From contig CANNRV010000004.1 in the NCBI GenBank assembly GCA_947508145.1, positions 1 to 33,324 of the forward strand: DNA of 33,324 bases, read 5' to 3'. Positions 18,664 to 33,324 of this stretch are shown in pieces. Under the pieces are notes generated by a model. The model did not search any database, was not told where the DNA came from, and saw nothing but the letters and a program-made list of their open reading frames with translations. Both the position numbers and the translations under genes were made by a program. Numbering within the stretch: the first letter of the stretch is position 1; each line of letters begins with the position of its first letter. This DNA is from Comamonadaceae bacterium (GTDB lineage Bacteria > Pseudomonadota > Gammaproteobacteria > Burkholderiales > Burkholderiaceae_C).

Positions 18664-19698
18664 TTAGTAACTCAGATGGGTGGACTTACCCCAAAACACA
18701 CGGAAGGCAAAAACGGTATACCCAATGATCACGGGTAACACCACCACCACGCCATAGAAAATCACCAACAAGGCTTCGGGCGAACTAGCGGCTTGCCAGA
18801 TATTGAGTTTGTCGATCACCAGCCAAGGGAACAAGCTGTAAGCCAAACCATAAAACGAAAGCAAGAACACACCCACCGTACTTGCAAAAGGAACCCCAGC
18901 TCCATATTGATTGCCTTGCGCGAACCGTGTGGGCAGGCGCGACAAACTGCGTCCAATGACAACAAACAAAGCCAATGTCACGGCGGGAATGGGCAAGAGC
19001 ATCAGCAAATTGGGAAAACTAAACCACTTGTCAAAAATGCGCTGACTGACCCATGGCGTGGCGATGGAAATAGCCAGCACGCCTGCAGCAGTCAACCACA
19101 GACTGTTTTTAGCCCAACGCACGGCATTGAGTTGCAAAAGGCCTTCGGTTTTCATGATCAGCCAGCTCGCACCCAGTAGACGGTAGGCAAACACCAAGCA
19201 AAAACCGATCAAGGCGCTGAATACATAAGCCGCTGTGTCGTGATTGAATCCAAGTATGAGTTGACCCAACATGAATCCTTGCGACCAAGATGCCAGCAGG
19301 GAGCCAATGTAAAAAGCTTTGTCCCACAAGGGCCGGTGATGCGCTTTGGCCTTGACCCGAAAGTCAAAAGCCACGCCACGCAGCGACAAGGCCACCAGCA
19401 TGAGCGCAACCGGCAGGTACAAAGCGCCCAAAATCACACCATGTGCCATGGGAAACCCCACCAGCAATACGCCCACACCCAACACCAACCAGGTTTCATT
19501 CGCATCCCAAAATGGGCCAATGCTGGCGATCATGGTGTCTTTGTGATCCAGCGTGTCGGCGCTGTCGAGCAACGCACCTACACCCAAGTCGTATCCGTCC
19601 AAAATAACGTAGGCCAACATGGACAGCGCCATGACCAAGGCAAACACCAGGGGCAGCCAACCGCTTGGGCTAGTCAAATCCACACCGAACTCAGACAT
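18664..19698 (-). CDS. cydB: cytochrome bd-type (CIO-like) ubiquinol oxidase subunit II
   Basis: LVFALVMALSMLAYVILDGYDLGVGAL, GPFWDANETWLVLGVGVLL. Confidence 0.93.
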   Translation of the reverse strand: MSEFGVDLTSPSGWLPLVFALVMALSMLAYVILDGYDLGVGALLDSADTLDHKDTMIASIGPFWDANETWLVLGVGVLLVGFPMAHGVILGALYLPVALMLVALSLRGVAFDFRVKAKAHHRPLWDKAFYIGSLLASWSQGFMLGQLILGFNHDTAAYVFSALIGFCLVFAYRLLGASWLIMKTEGLLQLNAVRWAKNSLWLTAAGVLAISIATPWVSQRIFDKWFSFPNLLMLLPIPAVTLALFVVIGRSLSRLPTRFAQGNQYGAGVPFASTVGVFLLSFYGLAYSLFPWLVIDKLNIWQAASSPEALLVIFYGVVVVLPVIIGYTVFAFRVFWGKSTHLSY

Positions 19699-21037
19699 GA
19701 CTCAGTCCTTTCATGTTGGCACTGGACTCCGCCCCACCGTTGACAGCTTTTCTGGCCAGGTAAAACACCACCGACACATAGGCAGACAAGAGCGCTGCGT
19801 AGAGCGTGAGGTACATCGCCAAGGACAGAGCGATGTTGGCTGGAGGCACTTGGGAAGCGGCTTGCGCCGTGGTTAGCAACCCATACACCAGCCAAGGTTG
19901 GCGACCTATTTCAGTGACATACCAGCCGGAAACCAAGGCCACCCACCCCGCAAATGTCATAGCCACCAAGACCATGGCGGTACGTTTGGACATGATTTTT
20001 TTGAATTTCAACTCGTAACTGGCAAACCAACTGACGGCCAGCATCAGCAGGCCCACACCGACCATGATGCGAAACGCCCAAAACACAGGTCCCACAGGTG
20101 GATGCTCGGCAAAGTCCTTGATGCCCTTGACCTCGCCGTTCCAATCGTGAGTCAGGTAAAAAGACGCCAATTTGGGAATAGCAATTTCAAATTTGTTGGA
20201 TTGCGTGGCTTGGTCAGGAATCGCAAACAACACGGCAGGCACACCTTGCTGTGTCTCCCAAATACCTTCCATCGCTGCCAACTTAGCGGGTTGGTGGTGC
20301 AAGGTATTCAAACCGTGCATATCGCCCACCAGTATTTGCACAGGTATCAAAGCAGCAGCCACAAACACACCGGTGCGCAACGCGGCCATGACATCTTTGG
20401 CGCGGTCGTTTTTCAGCCAACGGTAGGCGCTGATGCCTGCCAGCAAAAAAGAACCCGTCAAGCCCGAGGCCAAAAGCATGTGCGTCATGCGGTAGGGGAA
20501 AGACGGATTGAAAATGACCTCGAACCAACTGGTGACATGGGCTTGACCATTGATCATCTCGTAGCCAGCCGGTGTGTGCATCCAAGAGTTGAGCGCCAAA
20601 ATCCAAAATGCTGAAGCGGTGGTACCCAAGGCCACCAGCCAAGTGGCCAAGGTGTGCACGCCTTCGCTCACACGTCCGCGCCCGAACAACATGATGCCCA
20701 AAAATGTGGCTTCCAAAAAGAAAGCTGTCAGCACTTCATAAGCGAGCAATGGCCCCGCCACATTGCCCACGGTATTCATGAATCCTGGCCAATTGGTGCC
20801 AAACTGGAAACTCATGGTGATGCCACTGACCACACCCAGTGCAAAGGTCAGGGCAAAAATCTTGATCCAGAACTGGTAGGCGTCCATCCAATGCTGCTCA
20901 CCGGTCGCCACTAAGCGGGTTTTGAAAAACAACAAAAACCAGCCCATGGCTATGCTGATGGTGGGAAACAAAATATGAAAAGTGACATTCGCTGCAAACT
21001 GCAGGCGCGCCAGCACAACGGGATCAAGAGCGTCCAT
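19691..21037 (-). CDS. cydA: cytochrome bd-type (CIO-like, short Q-loop) ubiquinol oxidase subunit I
   Basis: LARLQFAANVTFHILFPTISIAMGW, GVVSGITMSFQFGTNWPGF; 8-nt overlap with cydB. Confidence 0.93.
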   Translation of the reverse strand: MDALDPVVLARLQFAANVTFHILFPTISIAMGWFLLFFKTRLVATGEQHWMDAYQFWIKIFALTFALGVVSGITMSFQFGTNWPGFMNTVGNVAGPLLAYEVLTAFFLEATFLGIMLFGRGRVSEGVHTLATWLVALGTTASAFWILALNSWMHTPAGYEMINGQAHVTSWFEVIFNPSFPYRMTHMLLASGLTGSFLLAGISAYRWLKNDRAKDVMAALRTGVFVAAALIPVQILVGDMHGLNTLHHQPAKLAAMEGIWETQQGVPAVLFAIPDQATQSNKFEIAIPKLASFYLTHDWNGEVKGIKDFAEHPPVGPVFWAFRIMVGVGLLMLAVSWFASYELKFKKIMSKRTAMVLVAMTFAGWVALVSGWYVTEIGRQPWLVYGLLTTAQAASQVPPANIALSLAMYLTLYAALLSAYVSVVFYLARKAVNGGAESSANMKGLSHV

Positions 21038-21045
21038 GTTTTATC

Positions 21046-21258
21046 TCATTCTGCAGGTGTTTCGGAATGGGTTTTGATAGCGCAGGTGCTGAAACCAAAC
21101 AGTGCGTAAGGCATGCAAATGCCCACGACACCGGTGACCAACACAATCACGCCCAGCCACGCCCATGGCCCCAGCACGCCAGTAGCCGCCAAAATGATCA
21201 GCGCCAATCCGGCGATGATGCGAAGAGCGCGGTCGATGCCGCCAACGTTTTGATTCAT
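21046..21258 (-). CDS. DUF2892 inner-membrane protein (YgaP C-terminal-like)
   Basis: MNQNVGGIDRALRIIAGLALIILAATGVLGPWAWLGVIVLVTGVVGICMPYALFGFSTC. Confidence 0.85.
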   Translation of the reverse strand: MNQNVGGIDRALRIIAGLALIILAATGVLGPWAWLGVIVLVTGVVGICMPYALFGFSTCAIKTHSETPAE

Positions 21259-21287
21259 GGTATTTCCTTGAAAGGTGATGGGTCTGT

Positions 21288-21743
21288 TTAAACCTTGAGC
21301 AACGCAGCGCTGACCCAACGCGCCAAATCGGGGGCCGACATCGCCCCAGGCTGTCTGGCAATTTCACGGCCACCCGCAAAAAGCGCCAAAGTAGGAATGC
21401 TGCGAATGCTGTACCTGGCCGCCAGGTTTTGCTCGTCCTCGGTATTGACTTTCACAAAGCGAGCTTGGCCTTGCATGTCTTGGCTGACCTTTTCATAGGC
21501 TGGCGCCATCATTCGGCAAGGGCCGCACCAAGGTGCCCAAAAGTCCACGACCATGGGCAATTCACTTTTGGCCAACTGGGCATTGAACGCTGTCTCACCC
21601 AGGTTGTCGGGTCGTGCATTCAACAATGAGGCGTGACAATTGCCGCAGTTCAACTCGGCTTGCAATTTGTCAGCAGGCACGCGGTTGGTGGCGTTGCAGT
21701 GCGGACATACCAAGTGCATTTTTTGAACATTGCTGTCGGTCAT
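21288..21743 (-). CDS. trxC: thioredoxin 2 (TrxC-type, N-terminal zinc-binding CXXC pairs)
   Basis: CPHCNATNRVPADKLQAELNCGNCH; VDFWAPWCGPCRMMAP. Confidence 0.92.
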   Translation of the reverse strand: MTDSNVQKMHLVCPHCNATNRVPADKLQAELNCGNCHASLLNARPDNLGETAFNAQLAKSELPMVVDFWAPWCGPCRMMAPAYEKVSQDMQGQARFVKVNTEDEQNLAARYSIRSIPTLALFAGGREIARQPGAMSAPDLARWVSAALLKV

Positions 21744-22363
21744 GGTTTCCTCGCGACGAATCCCACCAAAGCCGACATGCCACTGTGGCCTGCGCCCTCG
21801 GTGATGCTGGTTTCATAGGTTTCACAAACCTGAACTTCAAACCCTGCAAAGGCTTGTCTCAACAGGTCTTCGTCATACAGGTGCTCAATCTTGTCGGGGC
21901 CACCAGTTTTATAGGTCAGTTGGTTTTTGCCATAACCTTGGATCACCAACACGCCACCTGGTTTCAAACAGTCTTTGATTTTTTGAAACAGTTCAGAGCG
22001 TTCATCAGGTGTGGCAAATTGAAAAAAGATGCCCGCCACCAAGTCGTAATGTGCCGTGGGCCAATCGAAAGACTGCCAGTCGCTGCAGGTGAAATTCACA
22101 TTCGCTTGGTGCTTTTCAGCCAATGCCCGGGCTTTGACGATGGCCGGCGCTGAAAAGTCAAACGCGTCCACGGTGAAGCCTTGCTTGGCCAACCAGACGC
22201 TGTTGCGCCCTTCGCCATCGGCCAAAGCCAGTGCATGGCCCTTTCCCAGCAATGCGGCTTGGGACACCATAAAGGCGTTGGGCTCCTCACCAAACACATA
22301 GTCGGGCGTGGAAAAGCGCTTGTTCCACATCTCTTGGGGATAGGCGAATCCAGTCATGTTCAC
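21740..22363 (-). CDS. class I SAM-dependent methyltransferase
   Basis: ALALADGEGRNSVWLAKQGFTVDAFDFS motif I; 4-nt overlaps on both sides. Confidence 0.85.
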   Translation of the reverse strand: MNMTGFAYPQEMWNKRFSTPDYVFGEEPNAFMVSQAALLGKGHALALADGEGRNSVWLAKQGFTVDAFDFSAPAIVKARALAEKHQANVNFTCSDWQSFDWPTAHYDLVAGIFFQFATPDERSELFQKIKDCLKPGGVLVIQGYGKNQLTYKTGGPDKIEHLYDEDLLRQAFAGFEVQVCETYETSITEGAGHSGMSALVGFVARKP

Positions 22364-23238
22364 AGCGCGTTTAAAGGAATCTTGGCATAGGCAATGCCGT
22401 TATCTTCCTTGGGCGGCAGCTCTCCGGCACGGATGTTGATTTGCACCGCAGGCAGTATCAGCACCGGCATTTCCAAGGTGGCGTCGCGCTGGGTACGCAT
22501 CTCGACAAACTGCGCTTCGCTGATGCCGTCATGCACGTGTATGTTTTTGGCTTTTTGCTCGGCAACGGTGGTCTCAAACGCAACCGGTCTGTCACTGGGC
22601 GGATAGTCGTGGCACATGAACAAACGGGTCTCAGGCGGCAAACTCAGAATCTTGCGGGTAGAGGCGTACAAAGTTTTGGCGTCACCACCGGGAAAGTCGC
22701 AACGTGCGGTGCCCACATCGGGCATGAACAAGGTGTCGCCGACGAACACCGCATCGCCAAACTGATACGCCACGCAAGCCGGTGTGTGGCCCGGGACAAA
22801 CAGGGTGTGACCCGTCAAGCCGCCCACATGAATGGCTTCACCGTCCGCAAACAAATGGTCAAACTGTGAGCCATCAGGCTTGAATTCAGCTTCCATGTTG
22901 AAAATACCTTTGAACACTTTTTGCACGCCACCGATGTGGTCACCGATGGCGGTTTTGCCGCCGAGTTGCGCTTTCAGGTAAGGCGCAGCGCTCAAGTGGT
23001 CGGCGTGGGCATGGGTTTCCAAAATCCACTCAAGCTTCAAATTATTCGATTTGACGAATTCAATGACTTTGTCCGCTGACTTGTGACTGGTACGGCCCGA
23101 CTTGGGGTCGTAGTCCATGACCGAGTCGATGATGGCGCAGGCCGAGCCTGGTTTTTCAAAAACGACATAAGTCACTGTCCAGGTGGCGGGGTCAAAAATG
23201 CCGTGGACTTGCGGGTTGATATGGGCTGCTGTCATCAC
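22360..23238 (-). CDS. MBL-fold persulfide dioxygenase (ETHE1/Blh-like)
   Basis: LETHAHADHLSAAPYLK, GHTPACVAYQFGDAVFVGDTLFMPDVGTARCDFPGG, MCHDYPPSDR. Confidence 0.9.
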   Translation of the reverse strand: MMTAAHINPQVHGIFDPATWTVTYVVFEKPGSACAIIDSVMDYDPKSGRTSHKSADKVIEFVKSNNLKLEWILETHAHADHLSAAPYLKAQLGGKTAIGDHIGGVQKVFKGIFNMEAEFKPDGSQFDHLFADGEAIHVGGLTGHTLFVPGHTPACVAYQFGDAVFVGDTLFMPDVGTARCDFPGGDAKTLYASTRKILSLPPETRLFMCHDYPPSDRPVAFETTVAEQKAKNIHVHDGISEAQFVEMRTQRDATLEMPVLILPAVQINIRAGELPPKEDNGIAYAKIPLNAL

Positions 23239-23265
23239 AAACTCCTTTTGAATTAGATTTCTGAT

Positions 23266-23300
23266 AATATATTGACAAATATTTTGTTTGTCAATATACT
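23266..23300. promoter_or_regulatory. palindromic operator with two superimposed divergent sigma70-like promoters
   Basis: Arms TATATTGACAAA 23268-23279 / TTTGTCAATATA 23287-23298 (12/12 match, 7-nt spacer); plus: TTGACA 23272 -17- TATACT 23295; minus: TTGACA 23294 -17- TATATT 23271. Confidence 0.8.
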
Positions 23301-23337
23301 TTTCACATCTTCTTCAAAACAGCCAGGAAAACCGCCC

Positions 23338-23667
23338 ATGGACACCTCCACCTTGGACCTTGAAAAAATGAAAGCATCGGCAGGAAATGCTTGCCGACTC
23401 ATGAAAGTTCTCTCCAACCCCGACCGCTTGATGCTGCTGTGCCAGTTATCTCAAAGCGAAAAACGGGTCGGTGAGTTGGAAGAAATACTAGGCATTGTTC
23501 AACCTACCCTGTCGCAACAACTCACCGTATTACGTGAAGAAGAGTTGGTGACCACCCGCCGCGATGGCAAAAACATCTATTACCAGATCGCTAGCCCCCA
23601 AGCGCTGGCAGTCATGAACGTTTTGTTCGAACAATTTTGTGGGCCCAACGCAGGAGACAACACATGA
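23338..23667 (+). CDS. ArsR-family sulfide/persulfide-responsive repressor (BigR/SqrR/YgaV-like)
   Basis: wHTH VGELEEILGIVQPTLSQQLTVLREEELVTTRRDGKNIYYQI; two candidate sensor cysteines LLCQLS and FEQFCGP. Confidence 0.88.
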   Translation: MDTSTLDLEKMKASAGNACRLMKVLSNPDRLMLLCQLSQSEKRVGELEEILGIVQPTLSQQLTVLREEELVTTRRDGKNIYYQIASPQALAVMNVLFEQFCGPNAGDNT

Positions 23668-24107
23668 ATATCGATTGGACACATTTCACACCCTTCGCCT
23701 CTCTGACCGGCGGCATTATTTTGGGGGTGGCATCAGCCATTTTTATCCTGATCAACGGACGCATTTTGGGAATCAGCGGCATCTTAGGCGGCTTGTTGCC
23801 CCCTAAAGCCGGTGACACCACGTGGCGAATCGCATTCATGTTGGGATTGTTTGCAGCGCCTACGGTGTTCCACGCCGTTGTACCCGCCCAATTCATCACT
23901 GAACCCCGCATCGGTGCCACAGACTGGATGGTCGTCGCCGCCGGATTGCTTGTCGGCATTGGCACACGTTACGCATCAGGCTGCACCAGTGGTCACGGTG
24001 TTTGCGGTTTGTCCCGTTTATCGCCCCGCTCTTTGCTGGCCACCATGTCGTTCATGGGTGCGGGTTTTGCCATGGTCTACGTCATGCGCCATCTCTTTGT
24101 CATCTAA
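23664..24107 (+). CDS. YeeE/YedE-family (DUF395) membrane protein, subunit 1
   Basis: GIGTRYASGCTSGHGVCGLSRLSPRSLLATMSFMGAGF; ATGA overlap with the regulator. Confidence 0.9.
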   Translation: MNIDWTHFTPFASLTGGIILGVASAIFILINGRILGISGILGGLLPPKAGDTTWRIAFMLGLFAAPTVFHAVVPAQFITEPRIGATDWMVVAAGLLVGIGTRYASGCTSGHGVCGLSRLSPRSLLATMSFMGAGFAMVYVMRHLFVI

Positions 24108-24116
24108 GGAAAATAC

Positions 24117-24581
24117 ATGCTTCATAAAAACCATCTTTACCGCGTCGCTGAATTCAGCGTTGGCCTATTGTTCGGCATGGGTTTGATGCTTTCGGGCATG
24201 ACCGATCCCGGCAAAGTCATCGGATTTTTAGATTTGTTCGGCACTTGGGACCCTTCTCTCGCACTGGTGATGGGCGGCGCCATCATGGTGGGCTTTTTTG
24301 CCTTTACGGTTGCAAAAAAACGCACAACCACTTTCTTAGGTGGCGTTTTACGCCTACCTACCACCAACCGCATGGACAAACCTTTGGTGATCGGCAGTTT
24401 GCTGTTTGGTGCCGGTTGGGGCTTGGCCGGTTTTTGTCCGGGTCCTGCGCTGGTTTCTATGGCCGATGGCCAGCCTAAAGCGCTTGTGTTCGTGTTGGCC
24501 ATGTTGGTCGGCATGTTGGGCTTTGAATTGATGGACCGTTTTGTCCACGCCCCCCGCAAAGCCAAATTGAACGCAGCCTGA
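24117..24581 (+). CDS. YeeE/YedE-family (DUF395/DUF6691) membrane protein, subunit 2
   Basis: FGMGLMLSGMTDPGKVIGFLDLFGTWDPSLALVMGGA; LLFGAGWGLAGFCPGPA. Confidence 0.9.
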   Translation: MLHKNHLYRVAEFSVGLLFGMGLMLSGMTDPGKVIGFLDLFGTWDPSLALVMGGAIMVGFFAFTVAKKRTTTFLGGVLRLPTTNRMDKPLVIGSLLFGAGWGLAGFCPGPALVSMADGQPKALVFVLAMLVGMLGFELMDRFVHAPRKAKLNAA

Positions 24582-24601
24582 ACCTCACGATTGGAACCAT
24601 C

Positions 24602-26269
24602 ATGGACATCAAAGCACTCACCTCTCACCTTTCTATCAGCCCCCAAATCTTGGTTTCTGAGATGCAAGCTGTGGCGGACGCAGGTTTCAAAGCCATTATT
24701 TGCAACCGCCCGGATGGTGAAGGCCCTGATCAACCTGGTTTTCAAGAAATTGAAAATGCGGCCAAGCAATTCGGCATAGAGGCGAAATACCTGCCGGCTG
24801 AGTCAGGAAAGGTCACGGATGCCGATGGCAAATCTTTTGGTCAATTGCTACAAGTCATGCCCGGCCCTGTGTTGGCTTATTGCCGAACCGGTATGCGCTC
24901 GACCACCATGTGGGCTTTGTCGCAAGCGGGTGTCACACCTCTGCCGCAGATTTTGGAAGCCTCGCAAAAAGTGGGCTTTGACATGAAGGCCTTGGTGCAA
25001 CGTATCGCCAATGGCGGCAAAACCCCGACCGACCAAGCCGATGCCAGTCACGATGTGGTGATTGTCGGCGGCGGTGCTGCAGGCATTTCAGTAGCGTCGA
25101 GTTTGTTAGCCCGCAGTCCTTTGCTGGACATTGCCATCATCGATCCTGCAGATGCCCATTTCTATCAACCAGGCTGGACCATGGTGGGCGGCGGCATTTT
25201 CAAACCCGGTGAAACGGCCCGCACGATGGCCTCTGTCATTCCCACCGACGTGAGTTGGATCAAGGCGGCTGTGGCCGCATTCGAACCGGATAACAACCAA
25301 ATTATTTTGGAAGGTTGCCGTGTGGTGAAGTACAAGCAGTTGGTGGTGTGCCCCGGCTTGAAGCTGGACTGGCAAGGCATTGAAGGGTTGAATGAAACAT
25401 TGGGTCGCAACGGTGTGACTTCCAATTACCGTTTCGATCTGGCCCCCTACACCTGGGAGCTGGTGCAAAACTTGAAAGGCGGCAAAGCGCTGTTCACCCA
25501 GCCACCGATGCCCATCAAATGTGCTGGTGCGCCGCAAAAAGCCATGTACTTATCGGCCGACCATTGGACCCGCCAAGGTGTGTTGAACAACATCGACATC
25601 CAATTTTGCAATGCAGGTGCGGTGTTGTTTGGCGTGGCCGACTATGTGCCCGCCCTCATGGAATATGTGAAGAAATACCGCATCGGCCTGAACTTTGGTG
25701 AAACCTTGGTGGCCGTGGATGGCCCAGCACACAAAGCGACGTTCATGAAAAACCTAGCCAATGGCAGCAAAGAAAAAGTGGTGCGTGACTTCGACATGAT
25801 CCATGTGGTGCCGCCCCAAAAAGCCCCCGACTTTGTGCGTGTCAGCCCCCTTGCAGATGCCGCCGGTTGGGTCGATGTCGACCCGTCCAGCCTGCGCCAC
25901 AAAACGTATGCCAACGTGTTCGCGTTGGGCGATGCGGCCAACACCACCAACGCCAAAACCGCTGCGGCGGCACGCAAACAAGCGCCGGTGGTTGCACACA
26001 ATCTGTTGGTAGCTATGGGGCAATTGCAAGGTGAAGCCAAGTACGACGGTTACGGTTCCTGCCCTTTGACAGTCGAGCGCGGAAAGATTGTGCTCGCCGA
26101 GTTCACCTACGGCGGCAAGCTGGCCCCTAGCTTCCCTTCCTGGTTGATCGACGGCACCAAGCCTTCCGCTTTGGCCTGGTATTTAAAGGAACGCATCCTT
26201 CCCCCTATTTATTGGGAAGCCATGCTCAAAGGCCGTGAATGGATGGCGCAACCTGAAATGGTGGGCTGA
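24602..26269 (+). CDS. fusion of DUF442/TIGR01244 phosphatase-like domain and sulfide:quinone oxidoreductase-like flavoprotein
   Basis: N-term VADAGFKAIICNRPDGEGPDQPGF...AYCRTGMRST; C-term FAD GxGxxG (VVIVGGGAAGISVASSLL), QPGWTMVGGG, VFALGDAANTTNAKTAAAARKQAPVVA. Confidence 0.92.
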   Translation: MDIKALTSHLSISPQILVSEMQAVADAGFKAIICNRPDGEGPDQPGFQEIENAAKQFGIEAKYLPAESGKVTDADGKSFGQLLQVMPGPVLAYCRTGMRSTTMWALSQAGVTPLPQILEASQKVGFDMKALVQRIANGGKTPTDQADASHDVVIVGGGAAGISVASSLLARSPLLDIAIIDPADAHFYQPGWTMVGGGIFKPGETARTMASVIPTDVSWIKAAVAAFEPDNNQIILEGCRVVKYKQLVVCPGLKLDWQGIEGLNETLGRNGVTSNYRFDLAPYTWELVQNLKGGKALFTQPPMPIKCAGAPQKAMYLSADHWTRQGVLNNIDIQFCNAGAVLFGVADYVPALMEYVKKYRIGLNFGETLVAVDGPAHKATFMKNLANGSKEKVVRDFDMIHVVPPQKAPDFVRVSPLADAAGWVDVDPSSLRHKTYANVFALGDAANTTNAKTAAAARKQAPVVAHNLLVAMGQLQGEAKYDGYGSCPLTVERGKIVLAEFTYGGKLAPSFPSWLIDGTKPSALAWYLKERILPPIYWEAMLKGREWMAQPEMVG

Positions 26270-28005
26270 TGTCCACTATTTCACGCTGGCTTCCTTCTGT
26301 CCCCCTGCTAGATTGGGGCCGCCAATACAACCGCGAAACCTTCACCAACGACGCGGTGGCAGCACTGATCGTCACCATCATGCTGATCCCGCAAAGCCTG
26401 GCTTATGCCTTGCTGGCGGGGCTGCCGCCAGAGGTGGGTTTGTATGCCAGCGTCGCGCCTTTGCTGCTGTATGCAGTGCTGGGCAGCAGTCGCGTGTTAG
26501 CCGTGGGTCCCGTGGCCGTGGTGTCTCTCATGACCGCCGCCGCCGTGGCCGAACACGCCGCTGCGGGTACGCACGCCTATTGGCAAGTCGCTATTACGCT
26601 GGCGTTTTTGTCCGGCGGCATGTTGATGCTCATGGGTTTGCTGCGCTTGGGTTTTCTGGCCAATTTTTTGAGCCACCCGGTCATTTCAGGTTTCATCTCC
26701 GCTTCGGGTTTGCTGATTGCGCTGAGCCAACTCAAAACCCTCATGGGCGTGAAAGCCGAGGGGCATCACTTTGTAGACCTGTTGTTGGCCTTGGTTCATC
26801 AGGCAGCTAACACTCACCTGCTGACACTGATCGTTGGCATCATGGCCACGGCGTTTTTGTTTTGGGTGCGCAAGGGCTTAAAGCCTTTGCTCATCTCGGC
26901 AGGTTTGAAACCCAAACTCGCCGACGTGCTGGCCAAAGCGGGCCCGGTGGTGGCGATTGCTCTGACCACCGTGTTGGCATGGTCGCTAGATTGGCAAGGC
27001 CAAGGCATGAAACTGGTGGGTACTGTGCCGCAAGGTTTGCCACCCATCACCGCCCCTTTGTGGGATTTGGCTTTGTGGCAAGAGTTGTTGGTTCCTGCGT
27101 TGCTCATCAGCGTGGTCGGTTTTGTGGAATCTGTGTCGGTGGGCCAAACCTTGGCCGCCAAACGCCGTCAGCGGATTGAACCCGACCAGGAGTTGGTGGC
27201 TTTAGGTGCCAGCAATTTGTCAGCGGCATTCACGGGCGGCTTTCCGGTGACGGGTGGTTTCGCACGCTCGGTGGTCAACTTTGACGCAGGTGCTGTCACC
27301 CCGGCAGCAGGTGTATTCACTGCAGTAGGCATCACCTTGGCGTCACTGTTTTTAACTCCTGCGCTTTACTATTTGCCGCAAGCCACACTGGCGGCAACCA
27401 TCATCGTGGCCGTGTTGTCATTGGTGGACTTTGGCATTTTGAAATCCACTTGGCGTTTCTCAAAATTAGACTTTCTGGCCGTGGCCACCACTTTGCTCGC
27501 GACACTGTTGGTAGGTGTGGAAAGCGGTTTGGTCATGGGCGTGGCGGTGTCCTTGGCACTGTTTTTGTTCCGTGCCAGCCGCCCGCACATTGCCACGGTG
27601 GGCCTGGTACCCAACACGGAATACTTTAGAAATGTGTTGCGCCACGATGTCTTGGTCAGCCCCAAACTGGTTTGTCTGCGCGTGGATGCCAGCATGTTCT
27701 TCGCCAACGCACGAGGGGTGGAAGACCGCATCAATGCCGAGGCGGCTGCACGACCAGCCCTGGAGCACGTGTTGCTGCAGTGCTCTGCGGTGAACGATAT
27801 TGATGCCAGTGCACTGGAGAGTTTGGAAGCCATTGCCAGCCGCTTGAAAGATTCGGGCATCGCCCTGCATTTTTCAGAGATCAAAGGTCCGGTGATGGAC
27901 AAACTCAAGCAAACTGAGTTCTTGCAGCATTTGCACGGCCGCGTGTTTTTGACCAACTACCAAGCCATACAAGCGCTGACGCCGGAAGTTATTCAGCAGC
28001 GCTGA
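26269..28005 (+). CDS. SulP/SLC26-family anion transporter with STAS domain
   Basis: MLIPQSLAYALLAGLPPEVGLYASVAPLLLYAVLGSSRVLAVGPVA; STAS region VLLQCSAVNDIDASALESLEAI; TGATG overlap with preceding stop. Confidence 0.93.
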   Translation: MSTISRWLPSVPLLDWGRQYNRETFTNDAVAALIVTIMLIPQSLAYALLAGLPPEVGLYASVAPLLLYAVLGSSRVLAVGPVAVVSLMTAAAVAEHAAAGTHAYWQVAITLAFLSGGMLMLMGLLRLGFLANFLSHPVISGFISASGLLIALSQLKTLMGVKAEGHHFVDLLLALVHQAANTHLLTLIVGIMATAFLFWVRKGLKPLLISAGLKPKLADVLAKAGPVVAIALTTVLAWSLDWQGQGMKLVGTVPQGLPPITAPLWDLALWQELLVPALLISVVGFVESVSVGQTLAAKRRQRIEPDQELVALGASNLSAAFTGGFPVTGGFARSVVNFDAGAVTPAAGVFTAVGITLASLFLTPALYYLPQATLAATIIVAVLSLVDFGILKSTWRFSKLDFLAVATTLLATLLVGVESGLVMGVAVSLALFLFRASRPHIATVGLVPNTEYFRNVLRHDVLVSPKLVCLRVDASMFFANARGVEDRINAEAAARPALEHVLLQCSAVNDIDASALESLEAIASRLKDSGIALHFSEIKGPVMDKLKQTEFLQHLHGRVFLTNYQAIQALTPEVIQQR

Positions 28006-30987: not shown

Positions 30988-31596
30988 CTAAAACAACTTA
31001 TCTACTTGAAAGAGTGTGAGTAAACCCATAACAGCGAAGATGGCTGCGGCAACCGAATGTACCAACCTCATGGGAATCTTGGCTGCAAACCTATTGCCAA
31101 CAAATACAGCTGGAACATCTGCTATCAACATTCCCAATGTTGTTCCAGCAATAACAAACAGAGGTGAAGCGTAGTGGGCAGCTAAAGCCACGGTGGCTAT
31201 CTGAGTTTTATCACCCATCTCAGCCAAAAAGAACGTTACCAAAGTTGCACCGAACACGCCGAGATGGTTCGCTACTTCAGTTTCCTCTTCTTCAATTTTG
31301 TCTGGAATCAATGTCCAAATCGCCATCGAGATGAATGATCCACCAAGAACCCAACGCATGATTTCAGGACTTACTACTGAGGTAATCCAAGCGCCCAATG
31401 CACCGGCTAGGCCATGGTTAACTAATGTGGCGGCCAATATCCCTGTAATTATTGGAATAGGCTTTTTAAAACGTGCTGCAAGAATGAATGCAAGAAGTTG
31501 GGTTTTGTCACCGATTTCAGCAAGGGCAACAACACCAGTCGAAATGAATAGAGCTTCCATGAGAGAGATTCCTAAGCCAGACAAAACAATGACCAT
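30988..31596 (-). CDS. TMEM165/GDT1 (UPF0016) family manganese exporter
   Basis: Duplicated signature EIGDKTQLLAF and EMGDKTQIATVALAA; preceded by yybP-ykoY riboswitch. Confidence 0.93.
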   Translation of the reverse strand: MVIVLSGLGISLMEALFISTGVVALAEIGDKTQLLAFILAARFKKPIPIITGILAATLVNHGLAGALGAWITSVVSPEIMRWVLGGSFISMAIWTLIPDKIEEEETEVANHLGVFGATLVTFFLAEMGDKTQIATVALAAHYASPLFVIAGTTLGMLIADVPAVFVGNRFAAKIPMRLVHSVAAAIFAVMGLLTLFQVDKLF

Positions 31597-31740
31597 GCAA
31601 CCTCCCCGGCCAAACCGAAGGCAACATGGTCAAAGGTCTTGTCAAGTTAGAAACCGCTTACGCCATGGTCAAACAATGACCAAGTATGTTGACGTAAGCC
31701 CCTTCGAATAGTTCGAAGGGCGACTACTCCCCAGTGACTA
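31597..31740 (-). promoter_or_regulatory. yybP-ykoY manganese riboswitch
   Basis: Reverse strand CTGGGGAGTAGTCGCC..., GCTTACGTCAACATACTTGGTCATTGTTTGACCATGGCGTAAGC, CTTGACAAGACC, GGCCGGGGAGGTTGCATG at the start codon. Confidence 0.9.
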
Positions 31741-31844
31741 AATTATCTTAACTTAAAAGATCATTAGATTGAATAAATATTTGCGCGATAAAGACGCAGT
31801 AACTTATGAACAGCCTACAAACTAAAACCAATAACACGACAAAT

Positions 31845-32151
31845 GACACGGTTTTAAATTCCTGGGCTCCTCAAATCACATAGTTCGAGCCCCGCGTATA
31901 GAACCAAACTTCTGTCATAACTGGTTCGAGCCCCAAGCCTGGCCTCGAAATTTCACCTGCATAATGACGCAGACGATCGCAAATTTGCGTGTTTTGTCCA
32001 GAAAGTTACATTATGAAACTTTTTGGTTATTACACGGATTATTACACGTTTATCAAAAATACACGTAAGCCTATGATTTATATGGATTTTTGACCAGCCT
32101 GGCTTTCTGTTAATCCGTAGGTCCCTGGTTCGAGCCCAGGTCGAGGAGCCA
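31845..32151. repeat. right copy of the long direct repeat, with 41-bp insertion and tRNA-Asn 3' end (att)
   Basis: Matches 3389-3640 (offset 28456 before, 28497 after the insertion); GTTCGAGCCCC at 31883 and 31924 bounds the extra 41 bp. Confidence 0.85.
32107..32151 (+). tRNA. tRNA-Asn(GTT) 3'-terminal fragment (att core), not a complete tRNA
   Basis: CTGTTAATCCGTAGGTCCCTGGTTCGAGCCCAGGTCGAGGAGCCA = anticodon loop through CCA; 5' half absent immediately upstream. Confidence 0.85.
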
Positions 32152-32159
32152 AAACCCTT

Positions 32160-32190
32160 TTAAAATCAAGCACTTACAACTTGATTTTAA
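32160..32190. repeat. 11-bp perfect inverted repeat between att and integrase
   Basis: TTAAAATCAAG (32160-32170) / CTTGATTTTAA (32180-32190), 9-nt loop. Confidence 0.7.
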
Positions 32191-32277: not shown

Positions 32278-33324
32278 ATGCGCACACCCGGCAACGAAAC
32301 AATCGTAGTCAAGCCTGAGCTGATTAGGCTGGTGCGCCGTGACGACAGTAAAAAGTGGCAAGCACACTACAAGCTGGAGAATTTAAAAACTTGGTTCCGC
32401 CGCAGCACTGACACAGCCAACGTCAAAGAAGCTGCCAAGATTGCTGAGCGTATGTGGATGAAAGCCACCTTCGATCTTGAAGAGGGTCGCCCAGTTATCA
32501 GCAGGAAGTTCAAGCCTGTGGCTGAGGTTGTTTTACACCGCTTGGAGGCTGAAATAGCTGCCGGTACTGCCAAGCCCAGCGCCCGTGACTATGTATCAGC
32601 CATCAAGCTGTACCTCATCCCCTTCTACGGCGCCTACAACGTGGACGGTATCAAACCCTCCGTGATCTCAGAATTCCATGTGTGGCGACGTGACAAGGTG
32701 GGACGCGAGCTTTCAGGCAGTGCTCAGAACAACCACAACGCAGCGCTGAACCTTATCTTTGATGAAGCCGTTGAACGGGGCTACATGACCGCCTATGAAC
32801 GCCCACTGACCAAGAACACGGGTGCTGAGAGTGACCGTCGTGCGGAGTTCAGCCACGAAGAGCTGGAAACCATGATGAAGTACGCAGCTAAGTTCATCGC
32901 TGATGGGCGTACTGCTCGCACCAAAGTCATCCGAGAGCTGCTGGCTATTTACGTGCCCTTCATGGCTGCGACTGGCATGCGCCCAGGTACTGAAGCTGAA
33001 TATCTTGAGTGGCGGCACATTGACGTGGAAGTTCGTGACGGACAGCCCGTCCTGCATTTCCGTCTACAACGCGGCAAACGCGGCGCACGTAACTTTGTAG
33101 CCCACAACAGTTGTTGGCTGCTGCTAGAGCGCCTACGTCAGCTCAGTCCGGACTTGAACCACATGACCCTTGATGAAGTTTTAAAGAAAAAAGTCCCCAA
33201 GCTGCTTTTCCGCCTATCGGATGGCTCTGTGCCAGATAACTGGAACAAGCCCTTTCGCCAGTGGCTTGAGGACTCTGAGCTACTCAACTGCCCAGTTACG
33301 GGCAAGGAACGCAGCTTGTACAGC
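32278..33324 (+). CDS. phage-type tyrosine integrase, partial (continues beyond window)
   Basis: Open frame from ATG 32278 to window end (349 codons): MRTPGNETIVVKPELIRLVRRDDSKKWQAHYKLEN...YVPFMAATGMRPGTEAEYLEWRHIDV; not in the supplied ORF track. Confidence 0.88.
   Translation, partial: MRTPGNETIVVKPELIRLVRRDDSKKWQAHYKLENLKTWFRRSTDTANVKEAAKIAERMWMKATFDLEEGRPVISRKFKPVAEVVLHRLEAEIAAGTAKPSARDYVSAIKLYLIPFYGAYNVDGIKPSVISEFHVWRRDKVGRELSGSAQNNHNAALNLIFDEAVERGYMTAYERPLTKNTGAESDRRAEFSHEELETMMKYAAKFIADGRTARTKVIRELLAIYVPFMAATGMRPGTEAEYLEWRHIDVEVRDGQPVLHFRLQRGKRGARNFVAHNSCWLLLERLRQLSPDLNHMTLDEVLKKKVPKLLFRLSDGSVPDNWNKPFRQWLEDSELLNCPVTGKERSLYS

Follow-up and report, generated by a model that had tools for sequence, protein, structure and literature searches.

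One palindrome of 35 bp appears to serve two divergent sulfide-detoxification operons at once, both as the operator of an adjacent ArsR-family repressor and as a pair of interlocked promoters. The window, i.e., the whole stretch of 33,324 nucleotides that was analysed, has in a 99-bp intergenic region between those two gene sets a perfect dyad, each arm of which comprises the −35 box of one predicted promoter and the adjoining −10 box of the opposite one. The reading that we favour, and to which we give a probability of roughly 0.8 from comparison of sequences, is that operator and divergent promoter pair are one element here, through which a sulfane-sulfur-responsive ArsR would silence both operons together. 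Dozens of related bacteria have this arrangement next to the same repressor gene, so that a genuine switch, turning both operons on and off together, is very probable. Is it also a distinct Burkholderiales architecture, long kept, in which the ArsR operator is itself two reciprocal near-consensus sigma70 promoters, polymerase orientation fixes the operon ratio, and the arms change together in evolution since the bases that polymerase reads are those that the repressor reads too? That fuller proposal is more tentative, and we put it at a little short of an even chance.

The interlocked element

The features of the intergenic element are as follows.

23266..23300, unstranded: whole interlocked element, palindrome plus both promoters (from the sequence, with in-register conservation at 62 non-redundant related loci)
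23268..23298, unstranded: perfect dyad TATATTGACAAA-TATTTTG-TTTGTCAATATA, 12-bp arms round a 7-nt spacer, which the adjacent ArsR dimer is proposed to use as its operator
23279..23287, unstranded: inner core ATA-N3-TRT, here ATATTTTGT (columns 15, 17, 21 and 23 conserved at 89–100%)
23272..23277, plus: −35 box TTGACA of the arsR-side promoter (mean match 5.2/6 at 47 divergent-dioxygenase loci)
23295..23300, plus: −10 box TATACT of the arsR-side promoter (TAnAnT in 59/62 loci)
23289..23294, minus: −35 box TTGACA of the dioxygenase-side promoter (mean match 4.9/6 at 47 divergent-dioxygenase loci)
23266..23271, minus: −10 box TATATT of the dioxygenase-side promoter (TAnAnT in 57/62 loci)

In both predicted promoters the −35 and −10 boxes are 17 nt apart, and each matches the sigma70 consensus at 11 of 12 positions, i.e., with one mismatch. 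The letters thus hold hexamers on both strands, with a spacer in the range of 16–18 and on shared DNA, which is what defines overlapping divergent sigma70 promoters. A first-pass annotation, made from the sequence, had given the dyad, its arms, the boxes and the spacers, and all were found correct on re-reading; its description of the promoters as face-to-face was mistaken, as on each strand the −35 precedes the −10 that belongs to it and the transcripts point apart. The pair is back-to-back and fully interleaved, with each −10 outermost and transcription outward. From this geometry starts are expected near 23307 (plus) and 23259 (minus), about 48 bp apart.

That the element might instead be a transcription terminator was considered and rejected. 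The strand does fold (−12.9 kcal/mol), but the stem is nearly all A/T, lacks a T-run and is upstream of both expected starts.

The flanking operons

The genes on the two sides, with the ribosome-binding site of the dioxygenase, are these.

18664..22363, minus: remainder of the left operon, a methyltransferase, thioredoxin TrxC and cytochrome bd-type subunits I and II
22360..23238, minus: persulfide dioxygenase-like protein of metallo-beta-lactamase fold, first gene of the left operon
23241..23248, minus: ribosome-binding site AAAGGAGT, preceding the dioxygenase start (ATG at 23235)
23338..23667, plus: ArsR-family repressor of the BigR/SqrR/HlyU/YgaV group, with Cys35 and Cys101, proposed to bind the palindrome
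23664..28005, plus: remainder of the right operon, YeeE half 1, YeeE half 2 (DUF6691), a DUF442-SQR fusion and a SulP permease

The dioxygenase-like protein scores 396 bits against the C-terminal domain of Blh (NF040641), and its nearest solved chains are 4ysk and 4efz, with ETHE1 (4chl) more distant. Upstream of the CAT a CTCCTTTT-like block is found again in close relatives. On the minus side a rhodanese and then SOX genes lie beyond the cytochrome bd-type subunits, and on the plus side an MFS protein follows SulP. The right-operon order is retained in relatives, and that of the left operon is identical in a second copy of the region, described below. Profile and structure-relative matches bear out the gene contents that had been assigned to both operons in the first-pass annotation.

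Several other features of the window were noted in passing. The DUF442 sulfur-transferase domain is fused to sulfide:quinone oxidoreductase (24602-26269, plus), and relatives such as L040 match the DUF442 part alone, so the fusion seems to have been gained or lost within the group. A manganese riboswitch, RF00080 (109 bits; 31565-31744, minus), is directly upstream of, and slightly overlaps, the gene for a GDT1-family cation/proton antiporter (30988-31596, minus). Further along, a stretch resembling a tRNA 3′ end, GGTTCGAGCCCAGGTCGAGGAGCCA (32119-32152, plus), is ahead of an open frame (32278-33324, plus) that continues past the window edge and by eye resembles an integrase, with no Pfam match; more tRNA-like ends near 31885 and 31925 make this a possible integration site. 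Just past the tRNA-like stretch is the window's second-longest perfect dyad (32160-32190), with 11-bp arms beginning AAAATCAAG and a 9-base loop.

Chance, symmetry and the second promoter

Could the dyad be an accident of composition? It is the sole match within 3 mismatches in the window and also the window's longest perfect dyad. Perfect dyads with arms of 12 bp or longer arise at a mean of 0.07 per shuffled window, and in 6 of 20,000 shuffles of the 99-bp intergenic region. This uniqueness, with the shuffle statistics, rules out a chance dyad. Across the window no 17-spacer promoter other than the two described reaches 11/12; a scan of 23100–23450 returned exactly these, at 11/12 each, where shuffles average 0.5, and no further 17-spacer promoter of at least 9/12 was found within the 99-bp gap. 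The second promoter is, nevertheless, no independent coincidence, because dyad symmetry copies the first, and as it follows in part from the symmetry the local statistics alone cannot prove two promoters.

Symmetric operators are common and, given the dyad, a first promoter creates most of a second. Perhaps, then, there is one real promoter, that of arsR, over a palindromic operator, and its partner is an unused mirror image, with the dioxygenase operon starting elsewhere. We consider this unlikely: the 99-bp gap has no other promoter of comparable score, a good ribosome-binding site is at the right distance before the dioxygenase, the last T of the minus −10 falls outside the 12-bp dyad of the window, and that −10 keeps TAnAnT in 57 of 62 loci despite its two variable bases. 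The independent evidence for the predicted pair is its conservation, i.e., the second copy in the assembly and the spacing found in 61 of the 80 orthologous loci.

Conservation at related loci

Within the same assembly (2.0 Mb in 233 contigs, with a contamination estimate of 4.2%) there is a second perfect copy of the element beside a second arsR (93% identity). The region of sulfur-oxidation genes, dioxygenase and arsR is present twice (the second is locus L033, on contig C20), in the same order and with about 65–96% protein identity. The bin may contain another strain or species, or the duplication may be a true one; the former was considered because the flanking genes are duplicated too, at that range of identity.

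A scan of species genomes gave 80 further arsR loci, mainly from Burkholderiales. The genera among the 80 include Limnohabitans, Hydrogenophaga, Acidovorax, Comamonas, Polaromonas, Cupriavidus, Paraburkholderia and Ralstonia; the element is also borne by a Diaphorobacter plasmid. In most of these loci the dioxygenase is divergent, 80–210 bp off, and the YeeE genes are downstream. A motif search that took the window sequence as its seed placed the element in register ahead of most of the arsR genes, and 62 of these sites were left after near-identical ones had been dropped. Counted without the motif model, a divergent TAnAnT pair at the 23-base gap is present in 61 of 80 arsR loci (14 loci at the next-best gap), and when abutting −35 boxes of at least 4/6 are demanded on both strands as well, there are 41 at the true spacing versus 0–1 at other spacings. 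Where the dioxygenase is divergent (47 loci), 38 reach at least 9/12 on both strands, the mean −10 match being 4.9/6 for the plus and 4.7/6 for the minus strand. Because of the kinship among many of the 80, such counts overstate the number of independent events.

What happens when the arrangement of genes departs from this? When the divergent gene is other than the dioxygenase, TTGACA fades on both strands and not on one alone, so the constraints on promoter and on operator are not fully separable. Non-divergent loci are few; one, from Paraburkholderia (L096), retains a weak minus −35 (3/6).

Two further arrangements were seen. A Massilia alkalitolerans paralogue (L102:2889-3001) keeps the spacing and both −10 boxes while the arms TATCACA/TGTGATA replace TTGACA, a paired change in which both −35 boxes are lost and symmetry is retained. 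A more distant arsR/dioxygenase pair, L126, has upstream of arsR a long palindrome of another sequence, AATAACATTATAT-N6-ATATAATGTTATT, whose two TATAAT boxes are much nearer each other; it is possibly an independent shared-operator layout.

The geometry itself is narrowly distributed. The pattern TATTGACA-N3..25-TGTCAATA has 7 sites in 399 order-level genomes; four are at gap 11, all of them at the arsR locus, and the remainder are single sites at gaps 12, 13 and 25. At phylum level (399 genomes) the gaps scatter, and the counts come close to those of a reversed-pattern control. A general module serving many regulators is ruled out by this order-level confinement and phylum-level scatter. With the gap-11 sites confined to the arsR locus, the geometry is a property of ArsR and its operons, not a cassette in wide circulation.

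Promoter and proposed operator in the same bases

The column profile of the related loci falls into three layers of conservation. Positions 1, 2, 4 and 6 of the −10 boxes are nearly fixed (95–100%) on both strands while 3 and 5 vary; TAnAnT is retained at about 95–97% on each side, bases outside the 12-bp dyad included, and persists even where the arms lose complementarity at the variable bases. As conservation goes, this is the classic sigma70 −10 signature on both strands. The TTGACA boxes have graded conservation, and the inner core ATA-N3-TRT persists where the TTGACA arms are lost, the core being the likeliest centre of ArsR recognition.

Excess arm-to-arm complementarity is found only at the true centre. 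The most telling column is the third −10 base, which pairs between the arms (T/A, G/C, A/T) in 39 of 62 loci versus 27.7 expected. An independent-pairs test gave too few pairs, hence a simulation was used in which the two sides evolve independently on the ArsR and dioxygenase tree; against that null the count is 31 of 47 versus 19.6 expected (p 0.002 before correction for 11 columns), with offset 20 at p 0.013 and offset 16 at p 0.06, so that the tree-based co-variation signal amounts to one strong column and two weak ones. Sigma70 need not match the third −10 base between strands. The co-variation there suggests that a dimer reads through both −10 boxes, so the recognition edge would be at or beyond them and one dimer would cover both promoters.

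Symmetry can also be maintained by mutation. Were template switching in the quasi-palindrome the main cause, copying changes from one arm to the other, paired changes would be no proof of dimer recognition; the paired changes at −10 position 3 (TATACT, TAGACT and TAAACT in both arms) accord with this, as does the lack of any known sigma70 contact at the positions of paired variation. But such copying should correct the whole arm, yet offsets 5–10 co-vary no more than conservation predicts and offset 18 is without co-variation, and it leaves the fixed spacing and the TAnAnT pattern unexplained. We regard it as decidedly unlikely to be the main cause.

The candidate regulator

The ArsR is, by its sequence, a member of the BigR/SqrR/HlyU/YgaV group. 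In profile comparison its best solved relative is BigR 3pqj (E 3.5e-33), together with the ArsR-family chains 6o8k-6o8o, which we take to be SqrR, followed by HlyU 4k2e and YgaV 3cuo. Cys35 and Cys101, at the positions of BigR Cys42 and Cys108, are invariant in 18 aligned relatives, and a QPTLSQQL segment, also present in BigR 3pqj, is invariant among the ArsR relatives. The NCBIfam BigR equivalog NF040642 gives 104.3 bits (E 2.8e-30), below its curated 155-bit cut-off, which was passed in none of 229 genomes of the class. BigR-like proteins across the class mostly have different operators and different neighbours.

Comparison with what is published for the group brings out both kinship and divergence. 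BigR is reported over a −10 region and YgaV on the promoter of its own operon, with release by polysulfide (PMC5823870, PMC9774250); HlyU protects 35 bp (PMC4330345), the same size as the element here. The present system resembles these in the protein family by profile, in the cysteine pair and in its partners dioxygenase, YeeE and SQR. It differs in that the ArsR falls under the BigR cut-off and in that the arms are unlike both ATTC-N8-GAAT and the HlyU site; the former, the SqrR/YgaV-type motif (PMC9774250), is absent, there being no ATTC in the intergenic sequence. Those known sites also involve one promoter, whereas here two would be beneath the proposed site.

Does some other regulator, then, use the palindrome? 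Arms unlike the published SqrR or HlyU sites would be accounted for, but the element accompanies this arsR through dozens of species and, order-wide, every exact match at this spacing adjoins arsR. Further, in Polynucleobacter (L105 and L114), where dioxygenase and arsR are co-directional, the TTGACA dyad is gone, although such loci are few and suggestive only. Such a regulator is very unlikely in our estimation. The adjacent gene, proposed as the binder at the outset, stays the best candidate, as the element travels with it across relatives.

Known shared operators and bidirectional promoters

Single operators for two directions are not new. In E. coli, one palindromic operator, that of BirA, is between the divergent bioA and bioB operons. 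In this it is like the window element, but its promoters are weaker (best 7–8/12 when the sequence was scored here) and its arms are not reciprocal −35/−10 boxes. The overlapping divergent promoters of E. coli fepA-fes (PMC4469952) are similar in their overlap and differ in lacking a symmetric near-consensus pair, the best opposing candidates scoring 9/12 here. Closest in logic is acrA/acrR of E. coli (PMC12825309), where, as proposed here, one autoregulatory repressor, AcrR, shuts both directions and simultaneous polymerase binding is impossible; under strong transcription, competition there sets the divergent output. Its two directions share one −10, though, whereas each direction of the window element has its own interlocked −10 and −35. 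Control of both directions by one repressor is thus already known from acrA/acrR and what is new is the reciprocal geometry; no description of this locus or of that geometry was found in open-access papers.

The bidirectional promoters described by Warman and others have a shared −10 element and start sites 7–25 bp apart (PMC10268837). The symmetric TATA-rich arms could permit some starts of that kind, but that the element is a conventional E. coli-type promoter with a shared −10 is most improbable, as it has two separate −10 hexamers, which place the expected starts about 48 bp apart, outside the range round one −10 that characterises the class (PMC10268837, PMC12825309).

The proposed switch

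How might the switch work? A reduced ArsR dimer would sit on the palindrome over both promoters and keep RNA polymerase out whichever way it faced. On oxidation of its Cys35-Cys101 pair by persulfide or polysulfide the repressor would let go, both operons (dioxygenase/cytochrome bd and arsR/YeeE/SQR/SulP) would be induced together, and the arsR product would reset the switch by negative feedback. Free DNA would have room for a single polymerase at any moment, facing one way or the other, and the split between the operons would be set by the near-equal promoter scores on one common site.

The dual role proposed for the palindrome in the first-pass annotation is supported, at the level of sequence, by a conserved symmetric element beside arsR and by conserved interlocked promoters for both operons. 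Its further step, from polymerases that could not bind together to mutually exclusive transcription, is not supported. Since the promoters overlap, two polymerases would be sterically excluded from binding together; the anti-correlated output that it envisaged is not what is expected, as a common repressor predicts co-induction of the operons. Among E. coli bidirectional promoters, competition is seen only when one direction is strongly transcribed, and those tested are weak, with a shared −10 and competition mostly absent at basal level (PMC12825309). Polymerase competition is more plausible here by analogy, as both promoters are one base off consensus.

Bacterial bidirectional promoters have been described only recently, and the window element is the opposite of the tested weak cases: two strong-looking interlocked promoters, kept in many species, with a candidate natural repressor. 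It offers a compact natural system for how the choice of polymerase orientation sets the ratio of two operons, and also for how one DNA site can go on serving two different proteins. For the freshwater Burkholderiales that carry it, it suggests that the oxidation of persulfide, respiration through cytochrome bd and the capture of sulfide are tied together directly at the level of regulation.
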